Of a stretch of 43,876 bases of DNA, positions 13,229 to 43,658 are shown one piece after another (the stretch's first letter is position 1; every line of letters begins with the position of its first letter). The position numbers and the translations under genes are program-made. Below the pieces are notes generated by a model. That model searched no databases. It saw nothing but the letters and a program-made list of their open reading frames with translations, and was not told the origin of the DNA. The stretch covers positions 1-43,876 of the forward strand of contig DATLYR010000166.1 of the NCBI GenBank assembly GCA_035574475.1. Reading direction: 5' to 3'. The stretch is from Nevskiales bacterium. Lineage in GTDB: Bacteria; Pseudomonadota; Gammaproteobacteria; Nevskiales; DATLYR01.

Positions 13229-14050
13229 ATGGGGATCGACCAAATCGTCATCGACGCAGCACGGCCACGCAAGAGCCTGGACCTGCGCGAGCTGTGGCGC
13301 TATCGGGATTTATTGTATGTCCTGGTGCGGCGCGACGTTGCGGTTCGCTACCGGCAGACGGCACTCGGCGTGCTGTGGGCCATCCTGCAGCCGCTGGCTA
13401 CCATGCTGATCTTCACCCTCATTTTCGGCCGCCTCGCACGGATGCCCTCCGACGGGCTGCCTTATTCGCTGTTCGCATTTGCAGGCTTGCTGCCCTGGAT
13501 TTTCTTCGCCAGCACGCTCAACGCCGTTGGCAATTCAGTCGTCAATTCCAGCAACCTCGTGACCAAGGTTTATTTCCCGCGCCTGATCATACCGCTGGCT
13601 GCGATCGGCGCACCGTGTCTGGACTTGTTCATCTCGACCCTGTTCATGTGCGCGCTGATGGCGATCCACGGCTTTTGGCCCGCCTGGAGCGCGTTGTGGC
13701 TACCCGTGCTGTTTCTGGCGGTGGTCGTGACGGCCGTAGGCACGGGCAGCCTCATCGCGGCACTCAATGTCTCCTACCGCGATTTTCGCCACTTGCTGCA
13801 GCCGCTGATCACGCTCTGGCTGTTTGCTACGCCGGTCATCTACCCGCCTGCTATCGTGCCGGAAGACTGGCGCTGGCTGCTGTTCCTCAACCCGATGGCC
13901 GGGATCGTCACTGCCATCCGCGCGGCCTGGTTCGGGCTACCCTTCGATCTGACAGGGCTGGGACTCTCGCTGGCGGTGAGCGTATGCCTGCTGATTATCG
14001 GTCTCTCGTATTTCCGCTCGGTAGAGCGCCGCTTCGCGGACATCATCTAG
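13229..14050 (+). CDS. wzm: Polysaccharide ABC transporter permease
   Basis: This 273-residue ABC-2 type membrane protein of the Wzm/KpsM family has about six transmembrane segments. The N-terminal cytoplasmic stretch LWRYRDLLYVLVRRDVAVRYRQTALGVLWAILQP is characteristic. Next come segments around FTLIFGRL, LLPWIFFAS, LFISTLFMCALM, VLFLAVVVTAVGTG and LLIIGLSYF, and the VSYRDFRHLLQPL loop before TPVIYPP. With Wzt it moves a lipid-linked glycan across the inner membrane. It starts at 13229, 12 bases after the RGP-like gene, and is followed by wzt after 7 bases. Confidence 0.92.
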   Translation: MGIDQIVIDAARPRKSLDLRELWRYRDLLYVLVRRDVAVRYRQTALGVLWAILQPLATMLIFTLIFGRLARMPSDGLPYSLFAFAGLLPWIFFASTLNAVGNSVVNSSNLVTKVYFPRLIIPLAAIGAPCLDLFISTLFMCALMAIHGFWPAWSALWLPVLFLAVVVTAVGTGSLIAALNVSYRDFRHLLQPLITLWLFATPVIYPPAIVPEDWRWLLFLNPMAGIVTAIRAAWFGLPFDLTGLGLSLAVSVCLLIIGLSYFRSVERRFADII

Positions 14051-14057
14051 GCCAGGC

Positions 14058-15329
14058 ATGTCGATGAGCTATGCGATCGAAGCCTCGGGGATTGGCAAGC
14101 GCTATGTGGTGAGCCGGCAGCGGGTGGGGACACGCACGCTGGTAGAAGAGCTTGCCGGTTTGCCCCGCAGGCTCGTGCGGCGCGTATTCGGTGCGGGTAC
14201 GGAGACTGAGCAGGTGGATTTCTGGGCCTTGCGCGGGGTCGATTTTACCGTGAGCCAGGGCGAGGCCGTAGGCATCATCGGCCGCAACGGCGCCGGCAAG
14301 AGCACGTTGCTCAAGATCCTCTCACGTGTTACGGAACCGACCGAGGGTCGGGTGGTTCTGCGCGGTCGCGTAGCCAGCCTGCTGGAGGTCGGCACGGGCT
14401 TTCATCCCGAGCTGTCCGGGCGCGAGAACATCTATTTGAATGGCGCCATCCTTGGCATGCGCCGGCACGAAATTGCCGCCCGGCTGGAGCAGATCGTAGA
14501 TTTTGCCGGCGTCGCAGGCTTCATCGATGAGCCCATCAAGCATTACTCCAGCGGCATGTACACGCGCCTTGCCTTTGCCGTCGCGGCCTTCCTGGAGTCC
14601 GAGATCCTGATCGTGGACGAAGTGCTGGCGGTGGGCGACCACGCTTTCCAGGAAAAATGCCTTGGCACCATGCGCGATGCCGCGACCAGCGGCAGGACTG
14701 TTCTGTTCGTGAGCCACAATATGGCGGCCATTGCCCAGATCACCACCCGCACGCTACTGCTGGACCAGGGGCGGGTGGCATTCAACGGGCCCACGCGCGA
14801 GGCGACCGAGCACTATATCGGCGTAAAGCAGCGCGCATCCATGACTGGCCGCGTGCCGACCGACAGGATCAGCTGTGGCCGGCGCTGGCGTCGCGACGAT
14901 CATCTGTATATCCGCGAGATAGGCTTTGCGGACGGACAGCTGGATGAAATCCCTGTGGGTGGCAGCGTACGGCTGCAGGTGCTGATCACCGCGGCAGGCG
15001 GCTATGAAGGGCTGCGCCTAGCGTATACGCTCAACAGCAGCGATGGCACGCCGCTATTGACTGGGCTTACCTCATACTTCTCGGTAGAAGCGGGTGAACA
15101 GTTGTACGAGCTCACCATCGACAGGATAAACCTGATCCCGGGCGAGTATGATTTCAGCCTCATTCTGGGTACCGGGGGCTGGGCCGACCCGAAGCGGGAA
15201 TGCGATGTTTATATCGGCTTTGGACGGCTCAGGGTGTCGCCTTTGATGCCAGACGGCGGTTTGTTCGGAGACTGGCACAGCGCCTGGGGCATGAGCACGC
15301 ATTATGATTCACGGCTGCGGCGCATCTGA
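14058..15329 (+). CDS. wzt: Polysaccharide ABC transporter ATPase with C-terminal glycan-binding domain
   Basis: The first 250 or so residues form an ABC ATPase: Walker A GRNGAGKST (lysine about 81), signature YSSGMYTR, Walker B EILIVDEVLAVGD and the switch histidine in LFVSHNM. Residues about 250-423 form an extra beta-rich domain, as in the O-antigen Wzt proteins of E. coli O8/O9a. There, that domain recognises a terminal modification such as a methyl or methylphosphate group before export. The many methyltransferases downstream fit such a capping signal. The start at 14058 is ATG TCG ATG; the second ATG at 14064 is an alternative. Confidence 0.93.
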   Translation: MSMSYAIEASGIGKRYVVSRQRVGTRTLVEELAGLPRRLVRRVFGAGTETEQVDFWALRGVDFTVSQGEAVGIIGRNGAGKSTLLKILSRVTEPTEGRVVLRGRVASLLEVGTGFHPELSGRENIYLNGAILGMRRHEIAARLEQIVDFAGVAGFIDEPIKHYSSGMYTRLAFAVAAFLESEILIVDEVLAVGDHAFQEKCLGTMRDAATSGRTVLFVSHNMAAIAQITTRTLLLDQGRVAFNGPTREATEHYIGVKQRASMTGRVPTDRISCGRRWRRDDHLYIREIGFADGQLDEIPVGGSVRLQVLITAAGGYEGLRLAYTLNSSDGTPLLTGLTSYFSVEAGEQLYELTIDRINLIPGEYDFSLILGTGGWADPKRECDVYIGFGRLRVSPLMPDGGLFGDWHSAWGMSTHYDSRLRRI

Positions 15330-28906: not shown

Positions 28907-29833
28907 ATGCAACCCCCAACCGTTAGTGTCATCCTGCCCACTTATAATCGCGCCTCGACGCTGAGACGCGCGATCACCAGCGTGCTCTCACAGGACACTA
29001 CAGCTCCACTGGAGCTCATCGTGGTGGACGACAACTCCACTGACGGAACTGCGGATGTCGTGGCAGCGATCCAGGATGAACGCCTGCACTATATCCGCCG
29101 GACGACGAATGGCGGTGCATCGGCGGCACGCAACGCAGGGATCATGGCCGCGCGTGGCCGCTATATCGCTTTTATTGATAGTGACGATGAATGGTTGCCA
29201 TTCAAGCTCGAGAAACAGCTGGCGGCTCTTGATGCCGCCGGTACGGACATCGGGATGGTCGTGTGCGGCTTAATTCGCTGGGACAAGCGCCAGGCTGTTT
29301 ATCTGCCGCCGCCAGACCGCCGGCGGCAGCGCGAGCGCAATCTCAAGCGGGAGATTATCCGGCAGAATTTTGCGCTAACCTCATGTTGGCTGGTACGTCG
29401 CGAGTTTTTCGATCGCGTGGGGCCTTTCGATGAGCAACTCAAATGCCTGGTTGACTGGGAATGGCTGCTGCGGTTTTGCTTGCGTTACGATCTTTGTCTG
29501 ATTGAAGAACCCCTGTTGATGGTGTATGCCAGCCCTGACAGCATCTCGAGCAGGGAACTGGATTACATCGAGTCTCTTGAGAAGATGCTGTATAAGCATG
29601 CCAGTGCGCTTGTACATGACCGCCGCAGCTTGTCGAACCTGCACTATGTGCTCGGTAAGAAGTACTGCCTCTATCGCAGCATGCGCGAGGGCCGCCTGCA
29701 TTTGCTGCAGGCAATACGACTTTATCCGCTGGATTTGCGGGTGATCGCTGCCTTGCTGCTCTCGTTGCTTGGCATGCGGCTATTTACCCTGGTCTGGCGC
29801 TCGGTCAGGCATTCGAAGGGGTTTGTTGCATGA
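28907..29833 (+). CDS. Family 2 glycosyltransferase (tandem copy 4)
   Basis: The 308-residue protein has TVSVILPTYNRASTLRRAITSVL, LIVVDDNSTDGTADVV, ASAARNAGIMAARGRYIAFIDSDDEW and TSCWLVRREFFDRVGPFDEQL. DWEWLLRF replaces DWELALRL. It is the most diverged of the four tandem copies: the metal site is DSDD rather than DDDD and TPGW is replaced by TSCW. It may therefore use another donor or acceptor. It is the only copy that does not overlap its upstream neighbour. Confidence 0.87.
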   Translation: MQPPTVSVILPTYNRASTLRRAITSVLSQDTTAPLELIVVDDNSTDGTADVVAAIQDERLHYIRRTTNGGASAARNAGIMAARGRYIAFIDSDDEWLPFKLEKQLAALDAAGTDIGMVVCGLIRWDKRQAVYLPPPDRRRQRERNLKREIIRQNFALTSCWLVRREFFDRVGPFDEQLKCLVDWEWLLRFCLRYDLCLIEEPLLMVYASPDSISSRELDYIESLEKMLYKHASALVHDRRSLSNLHYVLGKKYCLYRSMREGRLHLLQAIRLYPLDLRVIAALLLSLLGMRLFTLVWRSVRHSKGFVA

Positions 29834-29906: not shown

Positions 29907-30350
29907 ATGATCCCTGTGGCTGCCGATTTGCGTCCGGTGCTCGTAGTGGGTGTGTTCGACTTATTCCACCGTGGCCACGTGGAGTTGCTGCGGCGCGCCC
30001 GTGAATTGGGCAGTTGCCTGCACGTTGTTGTCAACGGCGACCACCTGACTTCGGCGTACAAGCGTAGGCCGGTCATGACGGAGGATGATCGTCTGGCCAT
30101 CGTATCGGCCTGCCGCTATGTCGATCGGGCAGAAGTAAGTAACGACTACGATATCAAGCCTTATGTGGAGCGACACGGGATTCGCGTCATTGTTCATGGT
30201 GATGACTGGGAAAGAGCCAGCTATCTGCACCAGATCCGAGTAACTGAAGATTATCTGAGAGCGCGCGACATGGAGCTGGTATTTCTTCCGTACTATCGGG
30301 GCGAGAGCACCTCCGACCTTCGGCGACGGATACGGGAAGAGAGGCCATGA
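29907..30350 (+). CDS. TagD-like cytidylyltransferase (glycerol-phosphate type)
   Basis: This 147-residue nucleotidyltransferase has VGVFDLFHRGHVELL with the HxGH nucleotide-binding motif at residues 21-24, and RYVD. GDDWE at residues 98-102 is also found in TagD and ethanolamine-phosphate enzymes. STSDLRRRI resembles the C-terminal STTKIKxxI motif. The family joins CTP and a phospho-alcohol to make a CDP-alcohol plus pyrophosphate in the cytoplasm. A strong GGGAGGAG ribosome-binding site precedes ATG 29907. It overlaps the glycerol-1-phosphate dehydrogenase gene by ATGA, so the likely substrate is a glycerol phosphate. That substrate assignment is inference. Confidence 0.83.
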   Translation: MIPVAADLRPVLVVGVFDLFHRGHVELLRRARELGSCLHVVVNGDHLTSAYKRRPVMTEDDRLAIVSACRYVDRAEVSNDYDIKPYVERHGIRVIVHGDDWERASYLHQIRVTEDYLRARDMELVFLPYYRGESTSDLRRRIREERP

Positions 30351-31432
30351 ACAGCCCGGCTGACGACAAGCGTCGTCTGCTGCATGTGCCGGCCCGATTC
30401 GATATTTATTCGAGCCTGGATGAAACTTGCGTAGCCTTGAGCAAGGCGATCGAACGTCACTGTGCAAGGGATCCCCGCGCTGTTCTCTTCTCAGGTGACA
30501 GTCATACGGCAGATGCTGCACGCATCGTCGCTTCCGAGCTCAGTAAGACAGGGCTGAACTGCTATCAGCATCGCGTGAGCGATAGCACGCTGGCTGAAGT
30601 GCGCGAAGCTGTCAGTTCCCTGCGGGGTAACGCGGACATTCTGGTTGCGGTCGGTGGTGGATCGGTCATCGATGTGGCAAAGCTGGCCGCTCATGAGTTG
30701 GGACAACCGCTGATCATCATTCCCACTGCCTTGTCGAGTGACTGCATCGGCTCGCCGGTTGCCGTCATCAAGGATGATAATGGACACAGGCAAAGTTTAC
30801 CGTCGGTCATACCCAATCAAGTTCTGGTGGATACCAGTATTACCCTTACAGCGCCGCAGGAAATGGCGCTGGCGGGCGTATGCGATGTTTTGTCGAATGC
30901 CTCCGCTGTTCTGGACGCCGGCGAGGCGCAACAACAGGTCGGGTATGTGCCCGATAATTTTTCCATCACGCTGTCTGAAAGTGCATACCGACTCGTACTG
31001 CCGGTTAACTGGGATTATTTCAACACTGCCGCAGGCCATCGTGTTCTGTGCAAGTCACTCATCCTTTCCGGACTTGCCATGGGGTTCTCGGGAGACTCGG
31101 TACCGTGCAGCGGGGCAGAGCATGCCATCAGCCATGCCTTGGACCGCTTGAATCCACGAAGGCGGCTACATGGATTACAGGTTGGCATGACGACACGCTA
31201 CTGCCATCATTTGCGTCGACTGCTGAACAAAAAGGAATTGCCTTCGGCTGTGGTACAGGCATTGGACAGTCTGGACCTGTTGACACCCGAAGCCATGGGC
31301 ATAACCCAAGATGTCTTTCTGCGGGCAGTCCGGTTGGGCACTGCCATACGTCCGGGGCGCTACACTGTGCTCAACCAGCTTCCTGAAGAACCCGCGCTAC
31401 TCGAGGAAGCCTACCGCCTCGCCTTCACTTAA
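30347..31432 (+). CDS. Glycerol-1-phosphate dehydrogenase-like protein (EgsA/AraM family)
   Basis: This 361-residue member of the iron/zinc-type alcohol dehydrogenase family has the nucleotide loop AVGGGSVIDVAK and IIPTALSSDCIGSPVAVI, typical of glycerol-1-phosphate dehydrogenases. Metal ligands are visible at D180 (GVCDVLSN), H259 (SGAEHAISHALD) and H275 (LHGLQVGM), with the usual spacing between the two histidines. The family reduces dihydroxyacetone phosphate to sn-glycerol-1-phosphate with NAD(P)H, a stereochemistry rare in bacteria. Its ATGA overlap with the cytidylyltransferase suggests a shared product, possibly CDP-glycerol. Another keto-phosphate substrate remains possible. The next gene is convergent, 20 bases away. 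Confidence 0.78.
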   Translation: MNSPADDKRRLLHVPARFDIYSSLDETCVALSKAIERHCARDPRAVLFSGDSHTADAARIVASELSKTGLNCYQHRVSDSTLAEVREAVSSLRGNADILVAVGGGSVIDVAKLAAHELGQPLIIIPTALSSDCIGSPVAVIKDDNGHRQSLPSVIPNQVLVDTSITLTAPQEMALAGVCDVLSNASAVLDAGEAQQQVGYVPDNFSITLSESAYRLVLPVNWDYFNTAAGHRVLCKSLILSGLAMGFSGDSVPCSGAEHAISHALDRLNPRRRLHGLQVGMTTRYCHHLRRLLNKKELPSAVVQALDSLDLLTPEAMGITQDVFLRAVRLGTAIRPGRYTVLNQLPEEPALLEEAYRLAFT

Positions 31433-31452
31433 ACTCCTGCAGACATTAACGT

Positions 31453-32685
31453 TCATTGGCCAGCCAGGCAGCCGGCATACACGGTCTCAATCTGCTGGAG
31501 GCAGTGCTCGGGCCGATACTCACTGCAGGACCAGAAGCGATGGTATGCCTCCTGGCCAAGCCGGATCGTATAGTCCTTGTCGGATTGCATTCGGCGCATG
31601 ATTTCCGCCAGCTTTGCAGCATCTCCAGCCTCAACCCAAGCTCCGGTACGCTCTGGTTCGACATACCGCGCACCTGCTGAATGACTCGATACAATCGCGG
31701 GCACCCCAAGGGCAGCTGCCTCCAAGATCGTCAGTTGCTGGGTCTCGTATGCCAGCGTCGGCGCGGCCAGTGCCAATGCTCTACGCATGGCGTGATGAAG
31801 CTTGTCGCTGGGTAGCCAGCCGGACAGGCTGGCCTGCGGGTAGTGTGCACGTATCCAACTTGCCAACTCTCCGTCGCCAAGCAGGACCGGGGCGATGCCA
31901 GCAATGCGGCAGGCTTCCAGATAAGTCATTACACCTTTCTCGCGTGCCAGTCGACCGACGAAAACGATTGATTGTCTCTGGTCGGCAGACAGTGGAGGGT
32001 GCTGTTCTACTGCGATCGCGCTGGGTACAACATGAATCTGGCTGCCTTCCGGCAAATAAGGTTCGATCAACTCACGGCTGAAATCGGATACGCATATGAA
32101 ATGGCGCATCCGGCGGGGCATGCCGCCAGCGTACTGCTGAACAAATTGCCGCAGAGTACGCCACAACTTGTGTGAGTAGTGTCGTGCGTCACAGTGACAG
32201 CTGATACAGGCCAGGCTGAGGGGCTTGAGCGGACATGCGCGGGACTGCTGATAGTTGAAAAATCCACCGTTGGGACACGCGACGAAGTAGTCGTGCAGTG
32301 TGCATACAGAAGCCAAGCCGCTGTCTGCGATCGCAGCGACTGTGCTGGCAGATAGCGCTTTGGTCCAGCTATGCAGATGAACGACGGTGTGCCTGGGCTG
32401 CTGGCGCAGTAGTTCAGTGAGTTGCTGGGCCGCCTTGCGATTCCATAATCCCTGTATCCCGGCTGCGGCTCTTGATGAAGCACCGAGCAGATCCGTCTGG
32501 TTGCAGCTGAAGTAGTGGACGCCGTCCTTGGCTTGTGGCGCATGTGCAGGCACGGCTGAGAACAGGATAACCTCGTGCCCGCGAGCGGCTAGTCCCCGGG
32601 CCTGAGCCAGGGCAACCGATGAAGCGCCGCCCACTGGCAGTGCATAGTCGTTGACGACGACGACTCGCAGCCTATCCGGCATCAC
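31453..32685 (-). CDS. Family 4 glycosyltransferase
   Basis: This 410-residue GT-B transferase has an N-terminal VVVVNDYALPVGGASSVAL acceptor-side loop, HLHSWTKALSAS and a donor domain with SIVFVGRLAREKGVMTYLEA. The APTLAYETQQLTILEAAALGVP segment contains the E-x7-E motif of GT4. Several cysteines cluster between residues about 135 and 165 (ACPNGG, ACPLKPL, ACISCHC), a feature seen in a subset of GT4 enzymes. Start GTG 32685 overlaps the upstream stop as GTGA; ATG 32682 is the alternative. It is the last gene of the reverse operon. Confidence 0.85.
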   Translation of the reverse strand: MMPDRLRVVVVNDYALPVGGASSVALAQARGLAARGHEVILFSAVPAHAPQAKDGVHYFSCNQTDLLGASSRAAAGIQGLWNRKAAQQLTELLRQQPRHTVVHLHSWTKALSASTVAAIADSGLASVCTLHDYFVACPNGGFFNYQQSRACPLKPLSLACISCHCDARHYSHKLWRTLRQFVQQYAGGMPRRMRHFICVSDFSRELIEPYLPEGSQIHVVPSAIAVEQHPPLSADQRQSIVFVGRLAREKGVMTYLEACRIAGIAPVLLGDGELASWIRAHYPQASLSGWLPSDKLHHAMRRALALAAPTLAYETQQLTILEAAALGVPAIVSSHSAGARYVEPERTGAWVEAGDAAKLAEIMRRMQSDKDYTIRLGQEAYHRFWSCSEYRPEHCLQQIETVYAGCLAGQ

Positions 32686-33788
32686 ATGACCTTTTGGTGC
32701 TGCTCCAGCGCTGCAGCATATAACGCGAGAGTTTCACGGTGCATGCGTTCGACGGTGAAGTGCTCCAGGTAGCGTCGATATCCGTTGTCGCCGAACTTTG
32801 CCAGTTCTGCGCGATCGGTGTGTAGCAGGATATCGGTCAGGCTTTGAGGATCGTTCAGGTGGAAAATCCTGCCGGCGACGCCGTCTTGTACAATTTCGGG
32901 TAGCGCGCCGCGATCGCTGGCAATCACGGCCAGCCGGTTACGCATGGCTTCTAGCACCACCAGTCCAAATCCTTCCCAACGCGAGGGCACGAGTAGCGCA
33001 TCGAATCTGCAGTAATAGGCATCCACGTGCTCGGCATTGATCCATCCGAGATAATGCACATTGGGCAGCGGCTGATGGCTTGTTTTGTCCTTGTCCAATA
33101 TCCTGGCGCCTGCGACATACAGCGAGAAACGATCGGTAGGCAGGTGGCGAAAGGCATCCAGAAGTATATCGAGCCCTTTCTGCCGGTCATGCCGTCCAAT
33201 AAAGAAAAGATTGAGTTTTGCGGGATCCAAAACGAGATCAATGGGCTGTGTCGTTTCTTTGCGTGGCGATATGCCGTAGCGAATAACCCGGCAATGTCCG
33301 GAAGGAAGCCCAGCACGCAATGCTGCCGCACGCTCGTAATTCGATATGCTGCAAATCCCGTCGCAGGCATATGCGAGCCAACGCTCAACAATAGCGACTA
33401 GACGGTTCACCCAGCCTTTGGATTCGCGCAGGAACGCCCAGCCATGCGCGCAATAAACGATCGCGGGGCGTTGACGTTTCAGCATGCCCCAGATGCGGAC
33501 GATTGCACCAGCCAAGGTGCTATGGGCATGCACAATTTCTGGCCGCATGGCGGCGTTGGCGGCATGCAACGCCAGCAATAAACGGAACAGTGATGTCAGA
33601 TTTCTACCATTACGACGATAAGGGATAAGTTTGCAGCGGATGTCTTTGGCGAGAAAGCGCAGATGCGATTCCGGCGCAAGCAGATACACATTGGCTTCAC
33701 CCCAGGTCTGAGTCTGAAGTCTCAGCGTTTCATTTAGATATGTCGCGATGCCCCCAGGGAGGGACTCGGCAACATGCAGGACGCGCAT
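32682..33788 (-). CDS. Family 4 glycosyltransferase
   Basis: This 368-residue GT-B enzyme has MRVLHVAESLPGGIATYLNE, then IVHAHSTLAGAIVRIW, SISNYERAAA, and LNLFFIGRHDRQKGLDILLDA. PSRWEGFGLVVLEAM carries the E-x7-E donor site. It resembles capsular and O-antigen transferases that act on lipid-linked glycans at the inner membrane. The ATG at 33788 has AAAGGA just upstream. It lies eight bases after the Wzy-like gene and overlaps the downstream GT4. The donor sugar is unknown. Confidence 0.87.
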   Translation of the reverse strand: MRVLHVAESLPGGIATYLNETLRLQTQTWGEANVYLLAPESHLRFLAKDIRCKLIPYRRNGRNLTSLFRLLLALHAANAAMRPEIVHAHSTLAGAIVRIWGMLKRQRPAIVYCAHGWAFLRESKGWVNRLVAIVERWLAYACDGICSISNYERAAALRAGLPSGHCRVIRYGISPRKETTQPIDLVLDPAKLNLFFIGRHDRQKGLDILLDAFRHLPTDRFSLYVAGARILDKDKTSHQPLPNVHYLGWINAEHVDAYYCRFDALLVPSRWEGFGLVVLEAMRNRLAVIASDRGALPEIVQDGVAGRIFHLNDPQSLTDILLHTDRAELAKFGDNGYRRYLEHFTVERMHRETLALYAAALEQHQKVM

Positions 33789-33796
33789 GATTCCTT

Positions 33797-35248
33797 TCAG
33801 CCAGAGCGCCCGAGGCCCAGAGCAGATTGGTACGAGGACTGCTCAGTAGCGCGCTTGCCCGTAGGCCTCCGCCAGTTCACGAGCAGCAGCAGGACCAACA
33901 TGGGACATGAAAGATAGGCGATGCCGCTGAGCAGGTCCCCCCGCAACAGATAGATTTGATAGCCCGCCCAGAAGCCCACAATCCAGAGGGGGGCACTCAA
34001 CACGTCCGGGTGCTTGACATGCTGCTCGAAGGCGCGGTCGAGATAGCCGGTGAAAAGGCCGTACAGGAAGAAAATGCAGACTACGCCCATCAAGCTGAAT
34101 GCCAGATAAGCTTCCATCCACAAGGGTGCCGCTACATTGGTGAAACGCAGACCGAAATGCCGCGCTACATGGTGACCGCTCCCAACATGTTTGGTTGGGT
34201 ACCAGCGTCGCGGATACCAGAAAAAGATCGAGTCGAACACGTTTTTTCCGTACATTATGCCCTTTTGCCGAACGTAGACCACCGAATTCAGCAACTGCTG
34301 GTAGGCATCATAATCGCCACGATATAACGCATCGCGCGAGTTCGACCACTCGTGGGACAGGTTGTCCAGGAAATTGTCGGTAGCACCGGCCTTGCGGAAT
34401 GCATCTAGCGCCGGGAAAGCGAGTATGAGGCCAGTGCTGAGCAAGCCGATATATAGCGCAGGCTTGATGCGCGTCCAGCGCAGCAGGATGAAGAGATAGG
34501 TCAGCACGATAGCCCCCAGCCAGAAGCGCTGCAAGGCTGGTGGGTAATTGGCGATGAGATTCACGGGGAGCAGCAGCACCAGTGCCAGCATCAGCCACCG
34601 TCGGTATGCCAGACTGACCCTGCGCCAGTGGCGGATGAGGATATACGCCAGTGCCATCAGGGCAATAATCGGTGGGCCGCGTAACAGTGACTGCAGCAGT
34701 AAAGCTTGGGATTTTTCGTAACGGGTGAAAAGGAAACGATTGATGTCGCCTCGGCTGCCCATCAGGACATCGGGTCCGCCCAGCACGATGATCAGAACCG
34801 TACTGGTCGCGATGGCAACGAACGACAGGATGAGCGTCGTCCGGATCGAAAATTCGAGAGGCCGTGTGTTTGCACGCGCGCGGCTCAGGTATGGCAGCAG
34901 GAAGCGGCCGAGTTCGTAGAACAGCACCCCGCACCACAGAATCAGCGTACCAGTCAGGGCAGCGTCCGCGTCATGGACATAAGGGCGTGGGAAGCGGTTG
35001 GCCAGTGTCTGTAGCAGCGGTGCCAGCGCGCACCAGATGAACACGAACAGCCAGAATGTGATGCTGACAGGGTGTGGAAGGCCGCGAAAGGCAATCCAGG
35101 TCAGCCGCAGAGAGCTGTAGATCAAGAGTCCGGCGAGGAGGTAGGCCGGCGCGGAAAAATGAGGGTATTCGATCCTGGCAAGCTGCGGAAGAACAAGGAT
35201 GGCAATCAGCAGCAAGGTTCCACCCGCCGCGAGTAGTGAGCGGTTCAA
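33797..35248 (-). CDS. wzy: Wzy-like O-antigen/oligosaccharide-repeat polymerase
   Basis: This 483-residue polytopic inner-membrane protein has roughly a dozen hydrophobic segments. They begin with SLLAAGGTLLLIAILVLP and YLLAGLLIYSS and end with LVLLLLVNWRRP. A long non-hydrophobic loop (EWSNSRDALYRGDYDAYQQ through TKHVGSGHHVAR) carries the conserved-looking DAYQQL and GSGHH segments. This is the layout of Wzy-type polymerases, which join repeat units in the periplasm; direct similarity is weak in that family. The start is TTG 35248, overlapping the upstream stop as TTGA. The longer open frame would extend into the phosphatidyltransferase gene. Confidence 0.72.
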   Translation of the reverse strand: MNRSLLAAGGTLLLIAILVLPQLARIEYPHFSAPAYLLAGLLIYSSLRLTWIAFRGLPHPVSITFWLFVFIWCALAPLLQTLANRFPRPYVHDADAALTGTLILWCGVLFYELGRFLLPYLSRARANTRPLEFSIRTTLILSFVAIATSTVLIIVLGGPDVLMGSRGDINRFLFTRYEKSQALLLQSLLRGPPIIALMALAYILIRHWRRVSLAYRRWLMLALVLLLPVNLIANYPPALQRFWLGAIVLTYLFILLRWTRIKPALYIGLLSTGLILAFPALDAFRKAGATDNFLDNLSHEWSNSRDALYRGDYDAYQQLLNSVVYVRQKGIMYGKNVFDSIFFWYPRRWYPTKHVGSGHHVARHFGLRFTNVAAPLWMEAYLAFSLMGVVCIFFLYGLFTGYLDRAFEQHVKHPDVLSAPLWIVGFWAGYQIYLLRGDLLSGIAYLSCPMLVLLLLVNWRRPTGKRATEQSSYQSALGLGRSG

Positions 35249-35934
35249 GCGGCCCTCGTGGCTTTGATGCGCAAGCCGGCTTGGACAACGGCCACCAGCA
35301 GGTATAGCAGCCCACACAAAGCAATGTAGGCGAGCAGGAGCGGCCGCAGCGGGAGCAGCAGGCAGATACTGAGCAGGAATAGGGGCGTGTCGGTTAGCTC
35401 CTTGACCATTTGCTTGGCCTGGGCACGCCATTGTCGTAGTCCATGCGGACGGTACTCGCCGGATTTGAGTACGGAGACGGTGTGCAGCCCGACACTCAGC
35501 CCGATGCCCAGCAGGAACAGCGCGATCACGGCCGGTATATCAAGTTCTGCCTGTCTGGCCACATTGGTAGCCAGTGCCAGGAGGATGCCGATGTTACGGA
35601 TATGGTCGGCAGTGACGTCCAGCCACGCGCCGTAGGCACTGCAGCGCTGCGTACCACGTGCAAGCTGCCCGTCTGCGCAGTCCAGCCCGAAACCGATCTG
35701 ATACAGCGCCAAGGCAAACAGCAAAAATCCGTCGTAGCCCGAGGACCAGGCCAAACAGGCATTGGCTGCCAGCATGGTCAGCAGACCGGCAAGGGTGACC
35801 TGATTGGGGCTCAAGCCTGCGCGCAGGGCCAGATAGGCGAGCGCGGCGCCTAGCCGATGACTGAAGACGCGCGCGCAGAAATACTGCCCAGGCGGGGCGA
35901 ATTTCTGGGACCAGAAATCGTAGAAGGTGAGCAA
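35245..35934 (-). CDS. CDP-alcohol phosphatidyltransferase family protein
   Basis: The 229-residue membrane protein carries the complete family motif: D85-C-A-D88-G-Q-L-A-R, then G102, D106 and D110, with exact canonical spacing. Hydrophobic segments lie on both sides, and one end has [12 protein letters not shown], typical of these enzymes. They transfer a phospho-alcohol from, or to, a CDP-alcohol. The start is TTG at 35934 with GGAGAG about nine bases before it. It heads the operon with the Wzy-like and GT4 genes and is divergent from gmd. Being near the CDP-alcohol-forming gene, it might attach glycerol-phosphate to a glycan or lipid. It could also be an ordinary phospholipid enzyme. Confidence 0.82.
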
Positions 35935-36078: not shown

Positions 36079-37170
36079 GTGACGAGAAAGCGCGCGTTGA
36101 TCACCGGCATTACGGGACAGGACGGGGCTTACCTGGCTGAGTTCCTGCTGGGCAAAGGATACACCGTCCACGGCATCAAGCGCCGCAGCTCGTCCTTCAA
36201 CACCGAGCGCATCGATCATCTGTACCAGGATCCGCACGCGCCGGGCCGGCGGATGATCCTGCACTACGGCGACATGACCGACGCCACCAACCTGATCCGC
36301 GTGGTGCAGGAAGTGCAGCCGGACGAGATCTACAACCTGGCTGCACAGAGCCATGTCGCGGTGTCCTTTGAGACGCCCGAGTACACCGCGAATGCCGACG
36401 CCCTGGGTACGCTGCGGCTGCTGGAGGCGATCCGTATCCTGGACATGGGCAAGCGCACGCGTTTCTACCAGGCCTCTACCTCCGAGCTGTATGGCCTCGT
36501 GCAGGAGACTCCGCAGCGCGAAACCACGCCGTTTTATCCGCGCTCGCCGTATGCCGCGGCCAAGCTCTATGCCTATTGGATCACGGTCAACTATCGCGAG
36601 GCCTACGGTTTCTTCGCCTGTAACGGTATCCTGTTCAATCACGAGTCGCCGATCCGCGGTGAAACCTTCGTCACGCGCAAGATCACGCGTGGCCTGGCGC
36701 GGATCAAGACCGGGATCGAAGAGCGCCTGTATCTGGGCAACCTGGATGCGCGCCGGGACTGGGGCCATGCCCGCGATTTCGTCGAGGCGCAATGGCTGAT
36801 CCTGCAGCAGGATCGCCCCGAGGACTACGTCATCGCCACCGGCACGCAGCACTCGGTGCGGGAGTTCGTGATGGCGGCGGCCGCGGAGCTGGGCATGTAC
36901 ATCGAATGGCGCGGTCACGGTTTGGAGGAGGTTGGCGTGGATACTGGGACCGGCAAAACGATCGTGGCAGTCGATAAGCGCTACTTCCGCCCGACCGAGG
37001 TTGACACGCTGCTGGGCGATGCCAGCAAGGCGCGCAAACAGCTGGGCTGGTCGCCGAAGGTCGGCTTTACCGAGCTGGTCCGCGAGATGGTGCAGGAGGA
37101 CCTGCAGATCGCTGAACGCGACAAGCTGGTGAAGGACCAGGGCTATCGCACCTTCCGGCACCATGAATAA
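36079..37170 (+). CDS. gmd: GDP-mannose 4,6-dehydratase
   Basis: This 363-residue SDR enzyme makes GDP-4-keto-6-deoxymannose. It has [20 protein letters not shown] (NADP loop), [37 protein letters not shown] and [15 protein letters not shown] (YxxxK), then [17 protein letters not shown]. All are typical of Gmd. I chose GTG 36079 because GAGGG lies eight bases before it and the homologous region begins there. The open frame extends further upstream across the intergenic region and is not credible. It overlaps fcl by eight bases. Confidence 0.95.
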
Positions 37171-38119
37171 AACCGACCGGATATACGTGGCCGGCCACCG
37201 CGGCCTGGTCGGGGCGGCGATTCTCCGGCAGCTGGCGGCGCAAGGGTACATCGACCTTGTGCTGCGCGAGCGTCAAGAACTGGATCTGACCAGCCAGGCG
37301 GCCGTAGACGAATTCTTCCGCCAGACGCGACCGGCTTATGTGTTCCTGGCCGCTGCAAAGGTCGGGGGCATCGCGGCCAACAGCCGTTATCCTGCGGACT
37401 TCATCCGTGACAACCTGCAGATCCAGACCAACGTCATCGACGCGGCCTGGCGCCATGGTGCGCGCAAGCTGGTGTTCCTGGGCTCGTCCTGCATTTACCC
37501 GCGCGAGGCCCCACAGCCGATGCGCGAGGACGCGCTGCTGAGTGGCCCGCTGGAGCCGACCAATGAGTGGTACGCCGTGGCCAAGATCGCCGGCATCAAG
37601 ATGTGCCAGGCCTATCGCCGTCAGTACGGATTCAACGCGATCTGCCTCATGCCGACCAACCTGTACGGACCCGGCGACAACTTCGATCTGCAGAACTCGC
37701 ATGTGCTGCCCGCCCTGATCCGCAAGTTTCATGAAGCCAGACTGCAGGGGCAGGCGAGCGTGACCGTCTGGGGCAGTGGCCAGCCGCGGCGTGAATTCCT
37801 GCACGTGGACGACCTGGCCGATGCCGCCCTGTTTCTTGCCCGGCATTACGACGATGAGGCGATCATCAACGTCGGTACGGGCGAGGACCTGACCATCACC
37901 GAGCTGGCGCAGCAGGTCGCGAGAGTGGTCGGTTTCACGGGCGACATCGTTTATGACCGCAGCAGGCCGGACGGGACGCCGCGCAAGCTGCTCGACGTCA
38001 GGCGCCTGCATGCATTGGGCTGGCGTCACCGCATCCCGCTCGAGGCGGGAATCCGGCAAACCTACGACTGGTATCGGGAGCATGCCAAGGATGGCAGTGT
38101 GCGGCTGGCATCGGGATGA
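37163..38119 (+). CDS. fcl: GDP-L-fucose synthase
   Basis: This 318-residue SDR epimerase/reductase has the NADP loop [39 protein letters not shown], and the YxxxK in [28 protein letters not shown] and [13 protein letters not shown] complete the pattern. It converts GDP-4-keto-6-deoxymannose to GDP-L-fucose, so fucose is probably part of the glycan. It begins inside gmd and overlaps the WcaJ-like gene by ATGA, forming a coupled three-gene set. Confidence 0.95.
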
Positions 38120-39540
38120 GACCGCGGCGTCAAGCCGACATCCTGGCACTGTCGCTCTGGCTGCTGCCGGTGATGGACATGCTCATCGTGATCTGGGCTG
38201 CGATCGTGTCCAGTTTGGCGATGGACCAGCTGCGTGATCCGGACCTGTGGCCGTGGTCAACGCACTACCGCGCCGGCGTGCTATTTGGCGCCATCCTGAC
38301 TCCGCTGGTTTTTCACCGGTTCGGCCTGTACCGCTCGCATCGCGGCGAGAGCCTGGCCGTGGAACTGATCCAGGTGACCGGCGCCTGGCTCGTGGTGCTC
38401 GGTATCCTCGCGGTCATGGCCATTGCCACCAAAACCAGCGTGATTTATTCCCGCCTGTGGATGGGCGGATGGCTGCTGGTCGGCTGTGTCCTGTTCTGGA
38501 TTTTCCGCATTGCTCTGCGGCTGACGGTTGCGCAGCTGCGTGCCCGAGGCTGGGACACGCGCGACATCGTCATGATCGGTTCAGGGGTGGAAGCGGCGCG
38601 TGTGGTGCGCCGGCTCAAGGGCCTGCGCGGTGCAGGCTATCGCATCGTGGGCTATTTCTCCGTTCCGGGCACGCCGGATCCGCTGTTTGCCAGTTTCCGC
38701 TGTCTGGGTGACATCGAGCACATCGTGCCGGTTCTGGAGCGGTTGCCGCATGCGCCGGACCAGGCCTGGATTGCGCTACCGGCAGAGCGTCCCGATCTGG
38801 TTAGGCTTGCGGCCACGCAGCTCGGCCAGACGACCCTCGACTGCCGCCTGGTCCCGGACACGCGCGAGTTCAACATCCTGAATTATGCCGTCAGCCAGGT
38901 GGCGGGCCTGCCCGTCATCAACCTGAGCTACAGCCCGATGACCGGTATCAACCGGATCATCAAGGCGATCGAGGACCGTGTGCTGGCGCTGCTGATCCTG
39001 AGCCTGGTGGCGCCGCTCATGCTACTGATCGCGCTGGCTATCAAGCTGGATTCACCGGGACCGGTGCTGTTCCGGCAGAAACGCCATGGCTGGAACGGTG
39101 AAGAGATCACCGTGCTCAAGTTCCGCACCATGGTGATGCACCGCGAAAAGGACGGCCATGTGACCCAGGCCAAGCGTGGCGATCCACGCGTTACCCGCTT
39201 GGGCCATTTGCTGCGGCGCACAAGTCTGGACGAGCTGCCGCAATTCTTCAATGTTCTGGCAGGTACCATGTCAGTGGTCGGGCCGCGTCCGCATGCGGTC
39301 GAGCACAATGAAATGTACAAGAAGCTGGTCAGCGGCTATGTGCTGCGCCACAAGGTCAAGCCCGGCATTACCGGCTGGGCCCAGGTCAATGGCTACCGGG
39401 GCGAAACGGAATCCCTGGAGATGATGAGAAGGCGCATCGAATACGATCTTTACTACATCGAACACTGGTCAATATGGCTCGATTTGACTATAGTGGCCCT
39501 GACTTGTATCCGGGGCTTCGTGTCCAGCCGTGCATATTAG
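38116..39540 (+). CDS. wcaJ: WcaJ-like undecaprenyl-phosphate sugar phosphotransferase
   Basis: The 474-residue protein starts with about four transmembrane segments and a nucleotide-binding-like domain (DIVMIGSGVEAARVVRRL). A C-terminal bacterial sugar transferase domain follows: LDSPGPVLFRQKRHGW, VLKFRTM, RRTSLDELPQFFNVL, VVGPRPHAVEHNEMY, KVKPGITGWAQVNGYRGETES and DLYYIEHWS. This last part is very like E. coli WcaJ, which loads glucose-1-phosphate on undecaprenyl phosphate. It therefore starts repeat-unit synthesis for a Wzy-type glycan. Other hexose-1-phosphates are possible. It follows fcl by overlap. Confidence 0.9.
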   Translation: MRPRRQADILALSLWLLPVMDMLIVIWAAIVSSLAMDQLRDPDLWPWSTHYRAGVLFGAILTPLVFHRFGLYRSHRGESLAVELIQVTGAWLVVLGILAVMAIATKTSVIYSRLWMGGWLLVGCVLFWIFRIALRLTVAQLRARGWDTRDIVMIGSGVEAARVVRRLKGLRGAGYRIVGYFSVPGTPDPLFASFRCLGDIEHIVPVLERLPHAPDQAWIALPAERPDLVRLAATQLGQTTLDCRLVPDTREFNILNYAVSQVAGLPVINLSYSPMTGINRIIKAIEDRVLALLILSLVAPLMLLIALAIKLDSPGPVLFRQKRHGWNGEEITVLKFRTMVMHREKDGHVTQAKRGDPRVTRLGHLLRRTSLDELPQFFNVLAGTMSVVGPRPHAVEHNEMYKKLVSGYVLRHKVKPGITGWAQVNGYRGETESLEMMRRRIEYDLYYIEHWSIWLDLTIVALTCIRGFVSSRAY

Positions 39541-39602
39541 ATTGGCCGGGACCTCGGATGAGAGGGAGAAGCGGAGCGCGTTATTGGCTTAAGGACCTGT
39601 GC

Positions 39603-40835
39603 ATGAAACAGCCAGGCAGGACAGGTGGCACACCAAGACTCGCAACATTCGCGTGCTGCGCCTTGTTTGCCGCAATTGCCGGAGCAGCCATCGCCGAAGA
39701 CCAGGAAGGCGCGCTGGGCATGAAGGTGGGTGCTGGCAGCCGCCTCTTGCTGTCGCTTGGCGTAGGCACGCGTTACGCCAGTAACTACTACTACCAGGAG
39801 AGCGACGAGGAATCCGCCGTGGGACTCGTTGTGAGGCCTTCTGCGCTGTTGCTGACGGATCGCGGAGCGTTGCGTTATCAGTTCTCTGCCACCGCAGAGG
39901 CTGGTGCGTTCAACCTCGAAGGTGACGCGGATGATTATCTTGATGGCGGCCTCGGCGCCAAGTTCGACTGGAAGCCGCTGACACGCCATTACTTCAGCGG
40001 CGGCGCCAGCTGGATCAGCGATCACGACCCGTTTGGCACGCGCCGCACCGAGGCGGCTGGGCTGCTGGATCGCAAGCTGGATCGCTGGGAGCAGACGGCC
40101 GGCAATTTCCTCTACCGTTTCGGCGCGCCGGAAGCGAAGATGAATCTGGAGGGCGAGTTATCCGCGTACGACCGTGAGTACACCACCAACCGCGATTCGA
40201 CTCAGTTCCTGGATTTTGACTCTGTTGCTCTTCGTGGCACCGCGTACTACAAGATCAGCTCCAAGACCAGTCTGCTGGCAGAGGTGATCGGCGCCGACAT
40301 CGATTACGACAAGATCGCAGTGGGTTCGGCCTCACGCTCTGGCGAAATGACGCGTTACCGGGTGGGTGCGCGCTGGCTGGCTACGGGCAAGACCACGGGT
40401 GACGTACGACTCGGCCGCGTGGAGCGTGACTTCGATTCTCCGGTGCAGGACAGCTACGATGAGTTCGACTGGCAAGTCGTAGTCAGTTGGGAACCAAGAA
40501 CACGGGATCGGCTCAGTCTGACGACAGGCCGCGAGCCTGAGGAGAGCTATCTGAATGCAGCCAGCCTGATCGATCATCGCTACTACCGCCTACGCTGGGA
40601 GCATGACTGGACAACCATGCTCAAATCCCGGCTGACTTATTCATTCGGTGACCTCGACTATCGCGGCATTACCCGCCATGACGAGGTGCAGGAATGGTCA
40701 CTGGATCTCGAGTACAAACCTGCACGGCGCTGGGCTCTGTTCGGTGAGATTGCATTGCAGGAGCGGGACTCCAATGTGGCGCTCCGTGACTATGACAATA
40801 CGGTTATTTCTGCAGGTATTCGTCTAACCTATTAG
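39603..40835 (+). CDS. Outer-membrane beta-barrel protein of the exopolysaccharide machinery
   Basis: The 410-residue protein has an N-terminal signal peptide (basic start, LATFACCALFAAIAGAAIA, cleavage near AEDQ). A long run of alternating polar/aromatic strands follows, and it ends in ISAGIRLTY, the terminal aromatic residue typical of outer-membrane barrels. A good AAGGA lies seven bases before ATG 39603; longer starts overlap wcaJ. It lies between the WcaJ-like gene and the OPX gene, as do EpsL-like and BBP2-like barrel proteins in other exopolysaccharide loci. It probably supplies the outer-membrane pore that the short OPX protein lacks. Confidence 0.78.
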   Translation: MKQPGRTGGTPRLATFACCALFAAIAGAAIAEDQEGALGMKVGAGSRLLLSLGVGTRYASNYYYQESDEESAVGLVVRPSALLLTDRGALRYQFSATAEAGAFNLEGDADDYLDGGLGAKFDWKPLTRHYFSGGASWISDHDPFGTRRTEAAGLLDRKLDRWEQTAGNFLYRFGAPEAKMNLEGELSAYDREYTTNRDSTQFLDFDSVALRGTAYYKISSKTSLLAEVIGADIDYDKIAVGSASRSGEMTRYRVGARWLATGKTTGDVRLGRVERDFDSPVQDSYDEFDWQVVVSWEPRTRDRLSLTTGREPEESYLNAASLIDHRYYRLRWEHDWTTMLKSRLTYSFGDLDYRGITRHDEVQEWSLDLEYKPARRWALFGEIALQERDSNVALRDYDNTVISAGIRLTY

Positions 40836-40860
40836 CCATCAGTTGTCACGGGTTTAATCA

Positions 40861-41448
40861 GTGCTGCACCATCTCGTGAGAGTCTTTGTCTCGCTATGTT
40901 TGATGATCGTAGCGAGCGCAATGCATATCGCCCCCGCCGCTCCGCCGGGGACCGCACCGGTGGCAGCAAACGCAGTTTCCAGCGAGGAGCGTGATTACCG
41001 CCTCGGGGTCGGCGATGTCATCCGTATCGACGTGCACAACGAGCCGGACCTGACGTTGGAGGTGCAGCTGCCTACTACCGGGACTTTCGACTATCCCTTC
41101 CTGGGTACGATACGGGCAGTCGGATTGACGGTGGCGCAATTACAGAACCGTCTCACGGAGGGGCTCTCTGGGGACTACCTGATCAACCCCGCAGTGAATG
41201 TCCGCGTGACGCAGTACCGGCCCTTCTATGTACGCGGCCAAGTGCGTAATTCCGGCGGGTTCCCCTACATCCTGGGACTGACCGTGGAAAAGGCCATCAC
41301 CGTGGCCGGCGGCTTCACCGATCGCGCCTCTCTGAAGAACATCTACTTGATCAAGGAAAACGCCACGCAGGAAAGCAGGGTCAAGGTAGGCCTTGATTCG
41401 CCTGTAGCGCCCGGCGACACCATCATCGTTGAAGAGAGCCTGTTCTAG
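40861..41448 (+). CDS. Polysaccharide export protein (OPX, short Wza-like)
   Basis: This 195-residue secreted protein has a signal peptide (VFVSLCLMIVASAM), a poly-export domain (YRLGVGDVIRIDVHNEPDL, FDYPFLGTIRAVGLTVAQL, LINPAVNVRVTQY) and one SLBB domain (YVRGQVRNSGGFPYILGLTVEKAI to PGDTIIVEE). It ends there, without the C-terminal amphipathic helix of Wza, and no lipobox cysteine is visible. It probably forms only the periplasmic part of the exit channel. GTG 40861 is used, with GTG 40876 as an alternative; neither has a clear ribosome-binding site. It lies between the barrel and the Wzc-like gene. Confidence 0.88.
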   Translation: MLHHLVRVFVSLCLMIVASAMHIAPAAPPGTAPVAANAVSSEERDYRLGVGDVIRIDVHNEPDLTLEVQLPTTGTFDYPFLGTIRAVGLTVAQLQNRLTEGLSGDYLINPAVNVRVTQYRPFYVRGQVRNSGGFPYILGLTVEKAITVAGGFTDRASLKNIYLIKENATQESRVKVGLDSPVAPGDTIIVEESLF

Positions 41449-41468
41449 GCATCGGAGTCGTGACATCC

Positions 41469-43658
41469 ATGGATAAGCAGACGATGGCCCCGATGCCTAC
41501 TCCACAGGAGGAGCCACTGATCGATTTGCGCGAGCTATTGCGCATTCTGAATCATTACAAGTGGGGTATTGCCAGCATTACCTTTGTTGCCGCACTGATT
41601 TCTGTGATGGCGGTGTATTCGATTACCCCTACCTACCAAGCGACGGTAACGATCCTGATCGAAGCCAAGGGCAACGTGCCTGTGGCTCAGGTACAAGATG
41701 TCTATGACCCCGGTTATGGGCGGATGGAGTATTACGGCACGCAGTTCACGATCATCAAATCGCGCGAATTGGCACGACGAGTCGTCGAAAGACTCGATCT
41801 GACTAAACAACCAGAGTTTGCCATGCCGGAGCCTGGTATGGTCGAAAAGCTGGACTGGCGCAAGTTTCTTCCCTTTCTTCCACAGACCCAAGACTTGGCG
41901 GAACAATCCGAGAGCGAGCGCGCCGCGGCGCACAAGGAATGGGTGATAGCAGAGTTCGGTCGTCGTCTTACCGTCGAGCCCATCTACAGCTCGCAGCTGA
42001 TGAAGGTCAGCTTCGAATCCGAAGATCCAGAGCTGGCTGCGTTGGTAGCGAATACCTTGGCTGAGCTGTTCATCGAGAGTTCCCTCGAAGCACGACTGGC
42101 AGCGGCACAAAAAGCCAGTAGCTGGCTGACTCAGAAGCTGGAAGGTCTGCGCGAAGACCTGCAGAAGGCGGAGCAGGCACTGCAAGCGTTTCGTGAACAG
42201 GAACAGCTCGTGAACGTCGGTGGTGAGCGCGGTTTGGTCGAGGAAGAGCTCACCGACAACGCGCGCCGGCTGCGCGAGGCGCGCAAGAAGACTGCAGAAC
42301 TGGCCAGCGCTTACTGGAAAATCCAGCAGGCTGGGGATGATCCTGGCAAGCTCGAAGACGTCAGTACGCTGCTGCAAGATGACGTAGTTAGACGCGCAAA
42401 AGAAAGCGTGCTACAGGCCTCCGAGACGGTGAAGCAGTTGGAGTCCCGTTATGGGCCGAAGCATCCACAGATGATCGCTGCGCGCGCACGACTGGATGCC
42501 GCCACCTCGGCGTATCGCACACAGCTGATCACAGCGGCCAAAGGGGTCAAGGCCGAGTACGAGATCGCACGTGAAAGTGAGCGTCTGCTTACCCAATTTG
42601 AGACAGGTGCACGTGGCACGATCCGCGGGCTGGACCGCAAGCAGTACCAGTTGCGCGCGCTGGAACGTGACGTTGAAACCAATCGCCAGCTCTATGACAT
42701 GTTCCTGGCGCGGTTCAAGGAAACGGATCTGACTGGACAGTACGAGGTGCTCAACGCGCGCGTGGTCGATCCGGCGGTCCCACCACAGCGCCCCTTCAAA
42801 CCCAAGAAACGCAAGATTGTGTTCCTGTCGACGCTGGCCGGCTTGTTGCTGGGTCTGCTGCTGGCGGGCCTGAGTGCCTTGCTCAGCGACATGGTGCGCT
42901 CGGGCGAAGAGCTGGAATCCCTGACCGGAACCCCCGTGCTGGGCGTACTGCCGCTGCTCGGTGCCGGTGCGCGCAAGGATCTGCCGAATCAGATGCTGCA
43001 CGCACCCCGCAGCGGGTTTGCGGAAGGCATACGCAGCATCCGAACCGGCGTGCTGTTATCGGACCTTGACGTCAAGAAAAAACGCCTGGTGGTGACGTCG
43101 TCGGCACCTGAAGAAGGCAAGACCACAATTGCCATCAATCTGGCAGTCGCGCTGGGTCAGATCGAGAAGGTTCTACTGCTGGAGGGCGATCTGCGCAGGC
43201 CGTCGATCGCGGCAAAATGCGGTATCAAGGACAAATCGCCGGGCATGATCGAATGGCTGTCCAATGCCAAGCCGCTGGAAGAGTGCATCTACCGCCATGC
43301 CGAGGCCAACATCGATATCCTGCCGGTCGGCAAGGTCCCGCCCAATCCTGCCGAAATTCTGGCCTCGGGGCGTTTTCACAAGCTGGTCGAGCTTCTGATG
43401 GACCGCTATGACCGGATCATCATCGATTCGGCGCCCTGTCACGCGGTCAGCGATACCGTACTGCTGGCCCAGAACAGTGACGGCATGATCTTCGTGGTGC
43501 AAGCGGATGTCACCGGCAAGCGCCTGATCCGCAGTGCGATCAAGCATCTGCGACATGCACGTGTACCCATCGTCGGGTCGGTTGTGAACCAGATCGATCT
43601 CAAGCGGCATGGTCACTACTACGCCAGCTACTACTACAACTACGGCTACTACGCCTGA
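41469..43658 (+). CDS. wzc: Wzc-like chain-length determinant and tyrosine autokinase
   Basis: This 729-residue inner-membrane co-polymerase has a Wzz domain with its first membrane segment at about residues 35-55 (WGIASITFVAALISVMAVYS). A long coiled-coil periplasmic part (LREDLQKAEQALQAFREQ, ETVKQLESRYGPKHPQM) and a second segment before SDMVRSGEELE follow. The BY-kinase domain shows Walker A SAPEEGKTT (K551), Walker A' LLEGDLRRPS (572-) and Walker B RIIIDSAP (D653). Eight tyrosines lie in the last 16 residues, the usual autophosphorylation cluster. It controls length and export of the Wzy glycan. ATG 41469 fits GGAG 12 bases upstream better than GTG 41460. Confidence 0.93.
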   Translation: MDKQTMAPMPTPQEEPLIDLRELLRILNHYKWGIASITFVAALISVMAVYSITPTYQATVTILIEAKGNVPVAQVQDVYDPGYGRMEYYGTQFTIIKSRELARRVVERLDLTKQPEFAMPEPGMVEKLDWRKFLPFLPQTQDLAEQSESERAAAHKEWVIAEFGRRLTVEPIYSSQLMKVSFESEDPELAALVANTLAELFIESSLEARLAAAQKASSWLTQKLEGLREDLQKAEQALQAFREQEQLVNVGGERGLVEEELTDNARRLREARKKTAELASAYWKIQQAGDDPGKLEDVSTLLQDDVVRRAKESVLQASETVKQLESRYGPKHPQMIAARARLDAATSAYRTQLITAAKGVKAEYEIARESERLLTQFETGARGTIRGLDRKQYQLRALERDVETNRQLYDMFLARFKETDLTGQYEVLNARVVDPAVPPQRPFKPKKRKIVFLSTLAGLLLGLLLAGLSALLSDMVRSGEELESLTGTPVLGVLPLLGAGARKDLPNQMLHAPRSGFAEGIRSIRTGVLLSDLDVKKKRLVVTSSAPEEGKTTIAINLAVALGQIEKVLLLEGDLRRPSIAAKCGIKDKSPGMIEWLSNAKPLEECIYRHAEANIDILPVGKVPPNPAEILASGRFHKLVELLMDRYDRIIIDSAPCHAVSDTVLLAQNSDGMIFVVQADVTGKRLIRSAIKHLRHARVPIVGSVVNQIDLKRHGHYYASYYYNYGYYA

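Follow-up and report, generated by a model that had tools for sequence, protein, structure and literature searches.

Organization of the Putative Module Genes

The stretch of DNA analyzed here is a 43,876-nucleotide contig of a Nevskiales bacterium (GenBank assembly GCA_035574475.1, contig DATLYR010000166.1; hereafter the window). Within a surface-polysaccharide locus it carries three genes that may jointly make, activate and transfer a phosphorylated alcohol: a TagD-like nucleotidyltransferase (29907..30350, plus strand), a dehydrogenase resembling the glycerol-1-phosphate dehydrogenases (G1PDHs) of the EgsA/AraM type (30347..31432, plus strand), and a CDP-alcohol phosphotransferase (35245..35934, minus strand). 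The genome that carries the window measures 2.86 Mb and is 98.85% complete. All three genes are intact between positions 29907 and 35934, where a first-pass annotation of the letters had placed them, and the gene arrangement it described is borne out. The nucleotidyltransferase gene, preceded by a ribosome-binding-like GGAGGAG, overlaps the downstream dehydrogenase gene through ATGA. The phosphotransferase gene starts at a TTG preceded by GGAGAG and heads the convergent operon; its stop overlaps, through TTGA, the TTG start of a gene for a Wzy-like repeat-unit polymerase (33797..35248, minus strand), and two GT4 glycosyltransferase genes follow (32682..33788, PF00534 97 bits, and 31453..32685, PF13439 and PF13692, both minus strand). 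The polymerase passes the curated cut-off of TIGR04370 marginally (40.5 vs. 40 bits). The plus- and minus-strand operons converge at 31432/31453, leaving a 20-base gap.

The Dehydrogenase

The dehydrogenase matches the Pfam family Fe-ADH_2 with 100 bits (cut-off 28). Its best NCBIfam is G1PDH (NF002022, 198 bits), with glycerol dehydrogenase far behind (74 bits), but the protein is very divergent and fails the NF002022 equivalog cut-off of 413 bits. Three other bacterial relatives likewise fail (231–280 bits), whereas the one archaeal control passes (441 bits), which may mean that the cut-off is tuned to archaeal proteins. The AlphaFold2 model (pLDDT 92) is closer to G1PDHs, including the complex with dihydroxyacetone phosphate (DHAP) 4rgq, than to glycerol dehydrogenases; Foldseek ranks 3ce9 first, then the G1PDHs 5fb3 and 4rgv and the AraM structure 9h4x, above glycerol dehydrogenases. 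In an alignment with 85 relatives every invariant residue is present: the three metal ligands D180, H259 and H275, all of which the first-pass annotation had recognized, as well as D132, H263 and the GGG/D109/K112 motif. The enzyme probably shares the chemistry of the G1PDH family, and the likeliest product would be sn-glycerol-1-phosphate. The genome also encodes an ordinary GpsA, which makes sn-glycerol-3-phosphate; a second dehydrogenase would therefore be needless for that compound and is expected to make something else. A role in archaeal-type ether lipids was considered and rejected, as the whole genome holds only two partial matches to GGGPS (PF01884), both below the cut-off.

The TagD-Like Nucleotidyltransferase

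The nucleotidyltransferase scores 69.8 bits against PF01467 (cut-off 21) and contains both HRGH (H21-x-G23-H24) and GDDWE (G98-D-D-W101). At the level of curated families it ties between RfaE domain II (TIGR02199, 66.7 bits) and TagD (TIGR01518, 65.1 bits), both far below cut-off; the TIGR01518 equivalog cut-off is 165.4 bits, and the TagD encoded in L103, a homologous locus from a second genome of this class (see below), scores 130.5 bits. A plain TagD was rejected, since the protein carries YYRGEST near its C-terminus where TagD has its RTxGIST substrate motif. YYRGEST is nearer to a YTKGxSST class, whose members occur in other polysaccharide loci and in one case next to LicD. Judged by its motifs, the enzyme is a CTP- or ATP-using transferase, and the best hint of its substrate comes from its pairing with the dehydrogenase. 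Of its earlier description as a cytidylyltransferase making CDP-glycerol, the nucleotidyltransferase part stands on these motifs; CDP-glycerol synthesis is what we infer, because the TagD and RfaE scores are equal and RTxGIST is missing.

The CDP-Alcohol Phosphotransferase and Its Relatives

The phosphotransferase carries DCADGQLAR-x8-G-x3-D-x3-D, an exact match to the catalytic motif DxxDGxxARx8Gx3Dx3D, as first described, and scores 37.5 bits against PF01066 (cut-off 22). The nearest NCBIfams are PIPS (44.5 bits, cut-off 170) and AIPS (44.1 bits, cut-off 180), both matched below cut-off. Assignment as an inositol-lipid synthase was rejected, given that the genome has no inositol-phosphate synthase. 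A single-sequence structure prediction (pLDDT 59) was too poor for use. The earlier statement that no TagB/TagF-type transferase is seen extends beyond the window: PF04464 has no match among the window genes scanned or in the whole genome.

In the same-class genome (L103), a phosphotransferase 28–30% identical to that of the window adjoins a Wzy_C protein. This locus is homologous to the window locus, sharing the GDP-mannose dehydratase (66% identity), a reversibly-glycosylated-polypeptide-like protein (64%), GT8 enzymes, the initiating transferase and the export genes. It also carries TagD and a TagB/F enzyme, and its genome has no match to the dehydrogenase at the threshold used. In other genomes of the phylum, phosphotransferase relatives occur with an inositol-1-phosphate synthase and a CTP transferase (three loci, L131, L133, and L134) or with a PEP mutase-CTP transferase fusion and phosphonopyruvate decarboxylase (L128). 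Of 13 loci of phosphotransferase relatives, 9 have a CTP transferase gene within the fetched stretch, against 3 of 80 control loci; the loci are partly related and the stretches differ in length, which makes the Fisher value a rough guide only. Searched against all plasmid records, the window phosphotransferase has only two matches, one of them belonging to the actinomycete cluster described below. A plasmid match near stealth genes (L007) was discarded: only transposase-like frames lie between, with no dehydrogenase or TagD.

Recurrence of the Module Logic in Other Genomes

The searches drew on samples of genomes. At least 80 loci of dehydrogenase relatives were collected with narrow patterns from a two-row dehydrogenase alignment, a six-row alignment having had no usable conserved block; a genome contig scan with the window dehydrogenase alone found no relative. 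In Coprothermobacter, a LicC-like CTP transferase gene and, after it, the dehydrogenase relative make up a two-gene unit. In replicons of Streptomyces and Nonomuraea (L003, L005, and L006), the order is phosphotransferase, LicC-like CTP transferase, dehydrogenase, second phosphotransferase and GT2. Since the dehydrogenase is paired with a TagD-like enzyme in the window and with LicC-like enzymes elsewhere, the CTP transferases with which this family has teamed up belong to two unrelated folds. The co-occurrence check proposed in the first-pass annotation, in which absence of the three genes elsewhere would count as refutation, goes half against the idea: the exact trio was not found in the genomes sampled, and a functional equivalent, a LicC-like CTP transferase with the dehydrogenase and phosphotransferases, was. 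In the library searched, no paper was found that describes the trio, the actinomycete cluster or a function for that cluster. Dehydrogenase relatives also occur on Desulfovibrio and Cytobacillus plasmids, but there they are not part of polysaccharide loci.

The two phosphotransferases of the actinomycete cluster are different enzymes; in L005 (7564-9258 and 11025-11804) one has a DUF5941 tail. In Streptomyces fungicidicus, hopanoid genes and an annotated ABC exporter come after the cluster (ABC exporter genes are annotated in L003), and the Nonomuraea cluster has a frame for an IspD-family cytidylyltransferase immediately upstream. A separate pattern concerns a HAD-type phosphatase motif (SDFDGTxT), found at most 1.1 kb upstream of the G1PDH-like gene, and often overlapping it, in 16 of 77 loci from six phyla (L015, L016, L019, L024, L026, L027, L029, L030, L031, L039, L042, L044, L047, L050, L087, and L090). 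This neighborhood suggests a bacterial route from DHAP through glycerol-1-phosphate to glycerol.

The Surrounding Polysaccharide Locus

The left part of the window holds propionate-metabolism genes, and the surface-polysaccharide locus begins at about 9.9 kb and runs as far as the right end. The GC content, 0.67–0.69 at the left end, falls to about 0.55–0.58 from 28 to 35 kb and is about 0.56 over the module; such a drop is expected for a variable polysaccharide region. Just 5′ of the TagD-like gene lies a GT2 glycosyltransferase (28907..29833, plus strand, PF00535 139.5 bits). Divergent from the phosphotransferase gene, a plus-strand series begins with a GDP-mannose 4,6-dehydratase (36088..37170, TIGR01472 605 bits, cut-off 415), whose family match begins at residue 78 of a 437-residue frame and whose true start is probably near 36088. 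It continues with a GDP-L-fucose synthase (37163..38119, NF047922 515 bits, cut-off 500), an initiating sugar-phosphate transferase (38116..39540, PF02397 224 bits), and genes for an outer-membrane barrel, export (OPX) and chain-length/kinase (PCP) proteins (39474..43658; PF10082, PF02563, PF02706, and PF13807). By its gene content, this is a Wzy-type surface polysaccharide locus that is predicted also to make GDP-fucose. No Wzx flippase was recognized among the window genes scanned.

An ABC-2 type polysaccharide exporter pair (13229-15329) coexists with the Wzy gene (33797-35248) and the OPX and PCP genes (39474-43658). Between 15336 and 28870 runs a long series of methyltransferase (three of them FkbM-type), GT8 and GT2 genes, which suggests a heavily methylated or variable glycan. 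Further left, a protein with a reversibly-glycosylated-polypeptide domain (PF03214; 12065-13216) is the one with 64% identity to its counterpart in the polysaccharide locus L103.

A Make-Activate-Transfer Reading

We read the TagD-like enzyme, the dehydrogenase and the phosphotransferase as one three-step make-activate-transfer module in a Wzy-type polysaccharide locus, with a rough probability of 0.55. In the first step, the dehydrogenase would reduce a phosphorylated ketose, most likely DHAP, to a polyol phosphate, most likely sn-glycerol-1-phosphate. The TagD-like enzyme would then activate this product with CTP to give a CDP-polyol. Finally, the membrane phosphotransferase would take the phospho-polyol off CDP and pass it to an alcohol held in the membrane, either the lipid-linked glycan intermediate or a diacylglycerol-type lipid. 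The phosphotransferase would thereby fill the role held elsewhere by a TagB/TagF-type enzyme; transfer is assigned to it because the genome lacks TagB/TagF. The substrates, the stereochemistry and the acceptor are what we infer; the genes, motifs and overlaps are observed, as is the return of the same logic in other genomes. The reading is supported by the two overlaps, ATGA coupling the TagD-like and dehydrogenase genes and TTGA coupling the phosphotransferase and Wzy-like genes, and by the recurrence of the dehydrogenase family and of phosphotransferase relatives beside CTP transferases, with the L103 phosphotransferase beside Wzy_C. A CDP-polar-alcohol as donor for such a phosphotransferase has a precedent in the CDP-inositol route, as set out in PMC9246714 and in earlier biochemistry that it cites (its reference 34), and two capsule cytidylyltransferases are reported to take both enantiomers of glycerol phosphate (PMC8262930). 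What the first-pass annotation called a glycerol-1-phosphate module keeps its module, given these recurrences and the lack of TagB/TagF; glycerol-1-phosphate itself is only the likeliest product, the dehydrogenase being divergent.

Several observations weigh against the module. The phosphotransferase gene does not share an operon with the other two. The exact trio has no second case in the genomes sampled, and the dehydrogenase went unmatched in overlapping draws of 99 (order), 368 (class) and 398 (phylum) other genomes. The YYRGEST motif departs from that of TagD. In the dehydrogenase, W191, R252, and K106, conserved in 89–98% of relatives, are replaced by A, V, and S, respectively, and the protein forms a very long branch in the tree. 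Its placement in that tree is unresolved, so that no clade is claimed for it, and the long branch and the three replacements make the exact substrate uncertain. Lastly, the phosphotransferase need not be a CDP-glycerol user, as L103 combines it with TagD and a TagB/F enzyme and has no dehydrogenase match.

Part of this evidence fits other explanations. The phosphotransferase might use the CDP-polyol for a lipid, in a Kennedy-type transfer to diacylglycerol, and the glycan would then be without glycerol phosphate. Transfer of sn-glycerol-1-phosphate onto diacylglycerol gives normal phosphatidylglycerol, so CDP-1-glycerol and diacylglycerol could yield phosphatidylglycerol of normal configuration; a polymer lipid anchor is the other conceivable product. 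That PIPS and AIPS are the nearest curated families, and that the actinomycete cluster adjoins hopanoid genes, speaks for such a lipid, as do the relatives with inositol-phosphate synthase and CTP transferase, which fit the Kennedy-like route proposed in PMC9246714. However, the window phosphotransferase is translationally coupled to the Wzy-like gene and that of L103 adjoins a Wzy_C gene, and we hold the lipid product to be unlikely. A slightly smaller chance is given to a dehydrogenase acting on another phosphorylated ketose or keto compound, with a pentitol or similar as the activated alcohol. The long branch, the loss of W191, R252, and K106 and the departure of the TagD-like substrate motif from glycerol-phosphate enzymes would all suit it, but the dehydrogenase keeps all invariant catalytic residues, its model fits G1PDHs (including the DHAP complex 4rgq) over glycerol dehydrogenases, and G1PDH is its top NCBIfam by far (198 vs. 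74 bits).

Two further explanations dissolve the trio. The TagD-like enzyme and the dehydrogenase may feed an unrecognized transferase in the locus, the phosphotransferase being an unrelated lipid or polymer enzyme. Its separate, convergent operon points that way, and so does L103, where phosphotransferase, TagD and a TagB/F enzyme occur with no dehydrogenase match; yet the window genome has no TagB/TagF-type enzyme and actinomycetes keep the same dehydrogenase family in one gene run with two phosphotransferases, which leaves this arrangement about as unlikely as a dehydrogenase acting on another ketose. Least probable is that the three genes are accidental neighbors in a horizontally assembled polysaccharide region and share no pathway. 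Each of the three is rare in the class, the region is of lower GC and the exact trio was not seen elsewhere in the genomes sampled, but chance would have to account for the dehydrogenase family being paired repeatedly with CTP transferases, which come from two unrelated folds, and for the repeated proximity of phosphotransferase relatives to CTP transferases. The make-activate-transfer module remains our preferred reading. Its most specific form is offered tentatively, as a possibility rather than an expectation: a gammaproteobacterial surface glycan bearing sn-glycerol-1-phosphate made by a cytosolic G1PDH, activated as CDP-1-glycerol and attached by the phosphotransferase instead of TagB/TagF. 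Such a route would mirror the known one through CDP-3-glycerol and have a counterpart in actinomycetes.

If true, this would give archaeal-type G1PDHs a concrete role in bacteria lacking ether-lipid enzymes, namely feeding a CDP-activated surface decoration, and would make the phosphotransferase a third way, beside TagB/TagF and LicD, of placing phospho-alcohols on glycans. A further prediction is that GlpQ, a phosphodiesterase specific for the sn-3 form, should leave this enantiomer of glycerol phosphate uncleaved. Thanks to the actinomycete cluster, the idea can be tested in cultured laboratory strains.

Comparison with Known Systems

Wall teichoic acid made from CDP-glycerol contains sn-3 glycerol phosphate, and lipoteichoic acid contains the sn-1 form, its glycerol phosphate coming from phosphatidylglycerol (PMC7086022). 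The first-pass annotation had called the stereochemistry of sn-glycerol-1-phosphate unusual; this has to be corrected, as the product of the module would be unusual for the CDP route and not for bacterial surfaces generally. Like the TagD/TagB/TagF system of wall teichoic acid and the TagF-like Gram-negative capsules, the window has a TagD-like nucleotidyltransferase in a surface-glycan locus. In contrast to them, it lacks TagB/TagF, has an additional G1PDH-like enzyme and an altered TagD substrate motif, and the known route yields sn-glycerol-3-phosphate (PMC7086022; PMC8262930). With the EgsA/AraM G1PDH and GGGPS pathway of archaeal and Bacillus ether lipids, the window dehydrogenase shares the fold, the metal ligands and the best family match; however, the genome has no GGGPS over cut-off, the partner of the dehydrogenase is a nucleotidyltransferase and its sequence is divergent.

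The CDP-inositol route, with inositol-phosphate synthase, CTP transferase and phosphotransferase, follows the same make-activate-transfer logic and uses the same phosphotransferase superfamily, whereas in the window the maker of the alcohol phosphate is a G1PDH-like dehydrogenase and the CTP transferase has the TagD fold and is not LicC-like. PEP mutase/PntC phosphonate decoration (PMC6697681) resembles the module in using nucleotidyl transfer to activate a small phospho-group destined for the cell surface, and some phosphotransferase relatives lie in such loci, but no phosphonate genes stand next to the module. The actinomycete cluster, in the order DUF5941-bearing phosphotransferase, CTP transferase, dehydrogenase, phosphotransferase and GT2 (L003, L005, and L006), differs from the window in its LicC-like instead of TagD-like enzyme and its two phosphotransferases; it shares homologues of both the window dehydrogenase and the window phosphotransferase, together with a CTP transferase and a glycosyltransferase.

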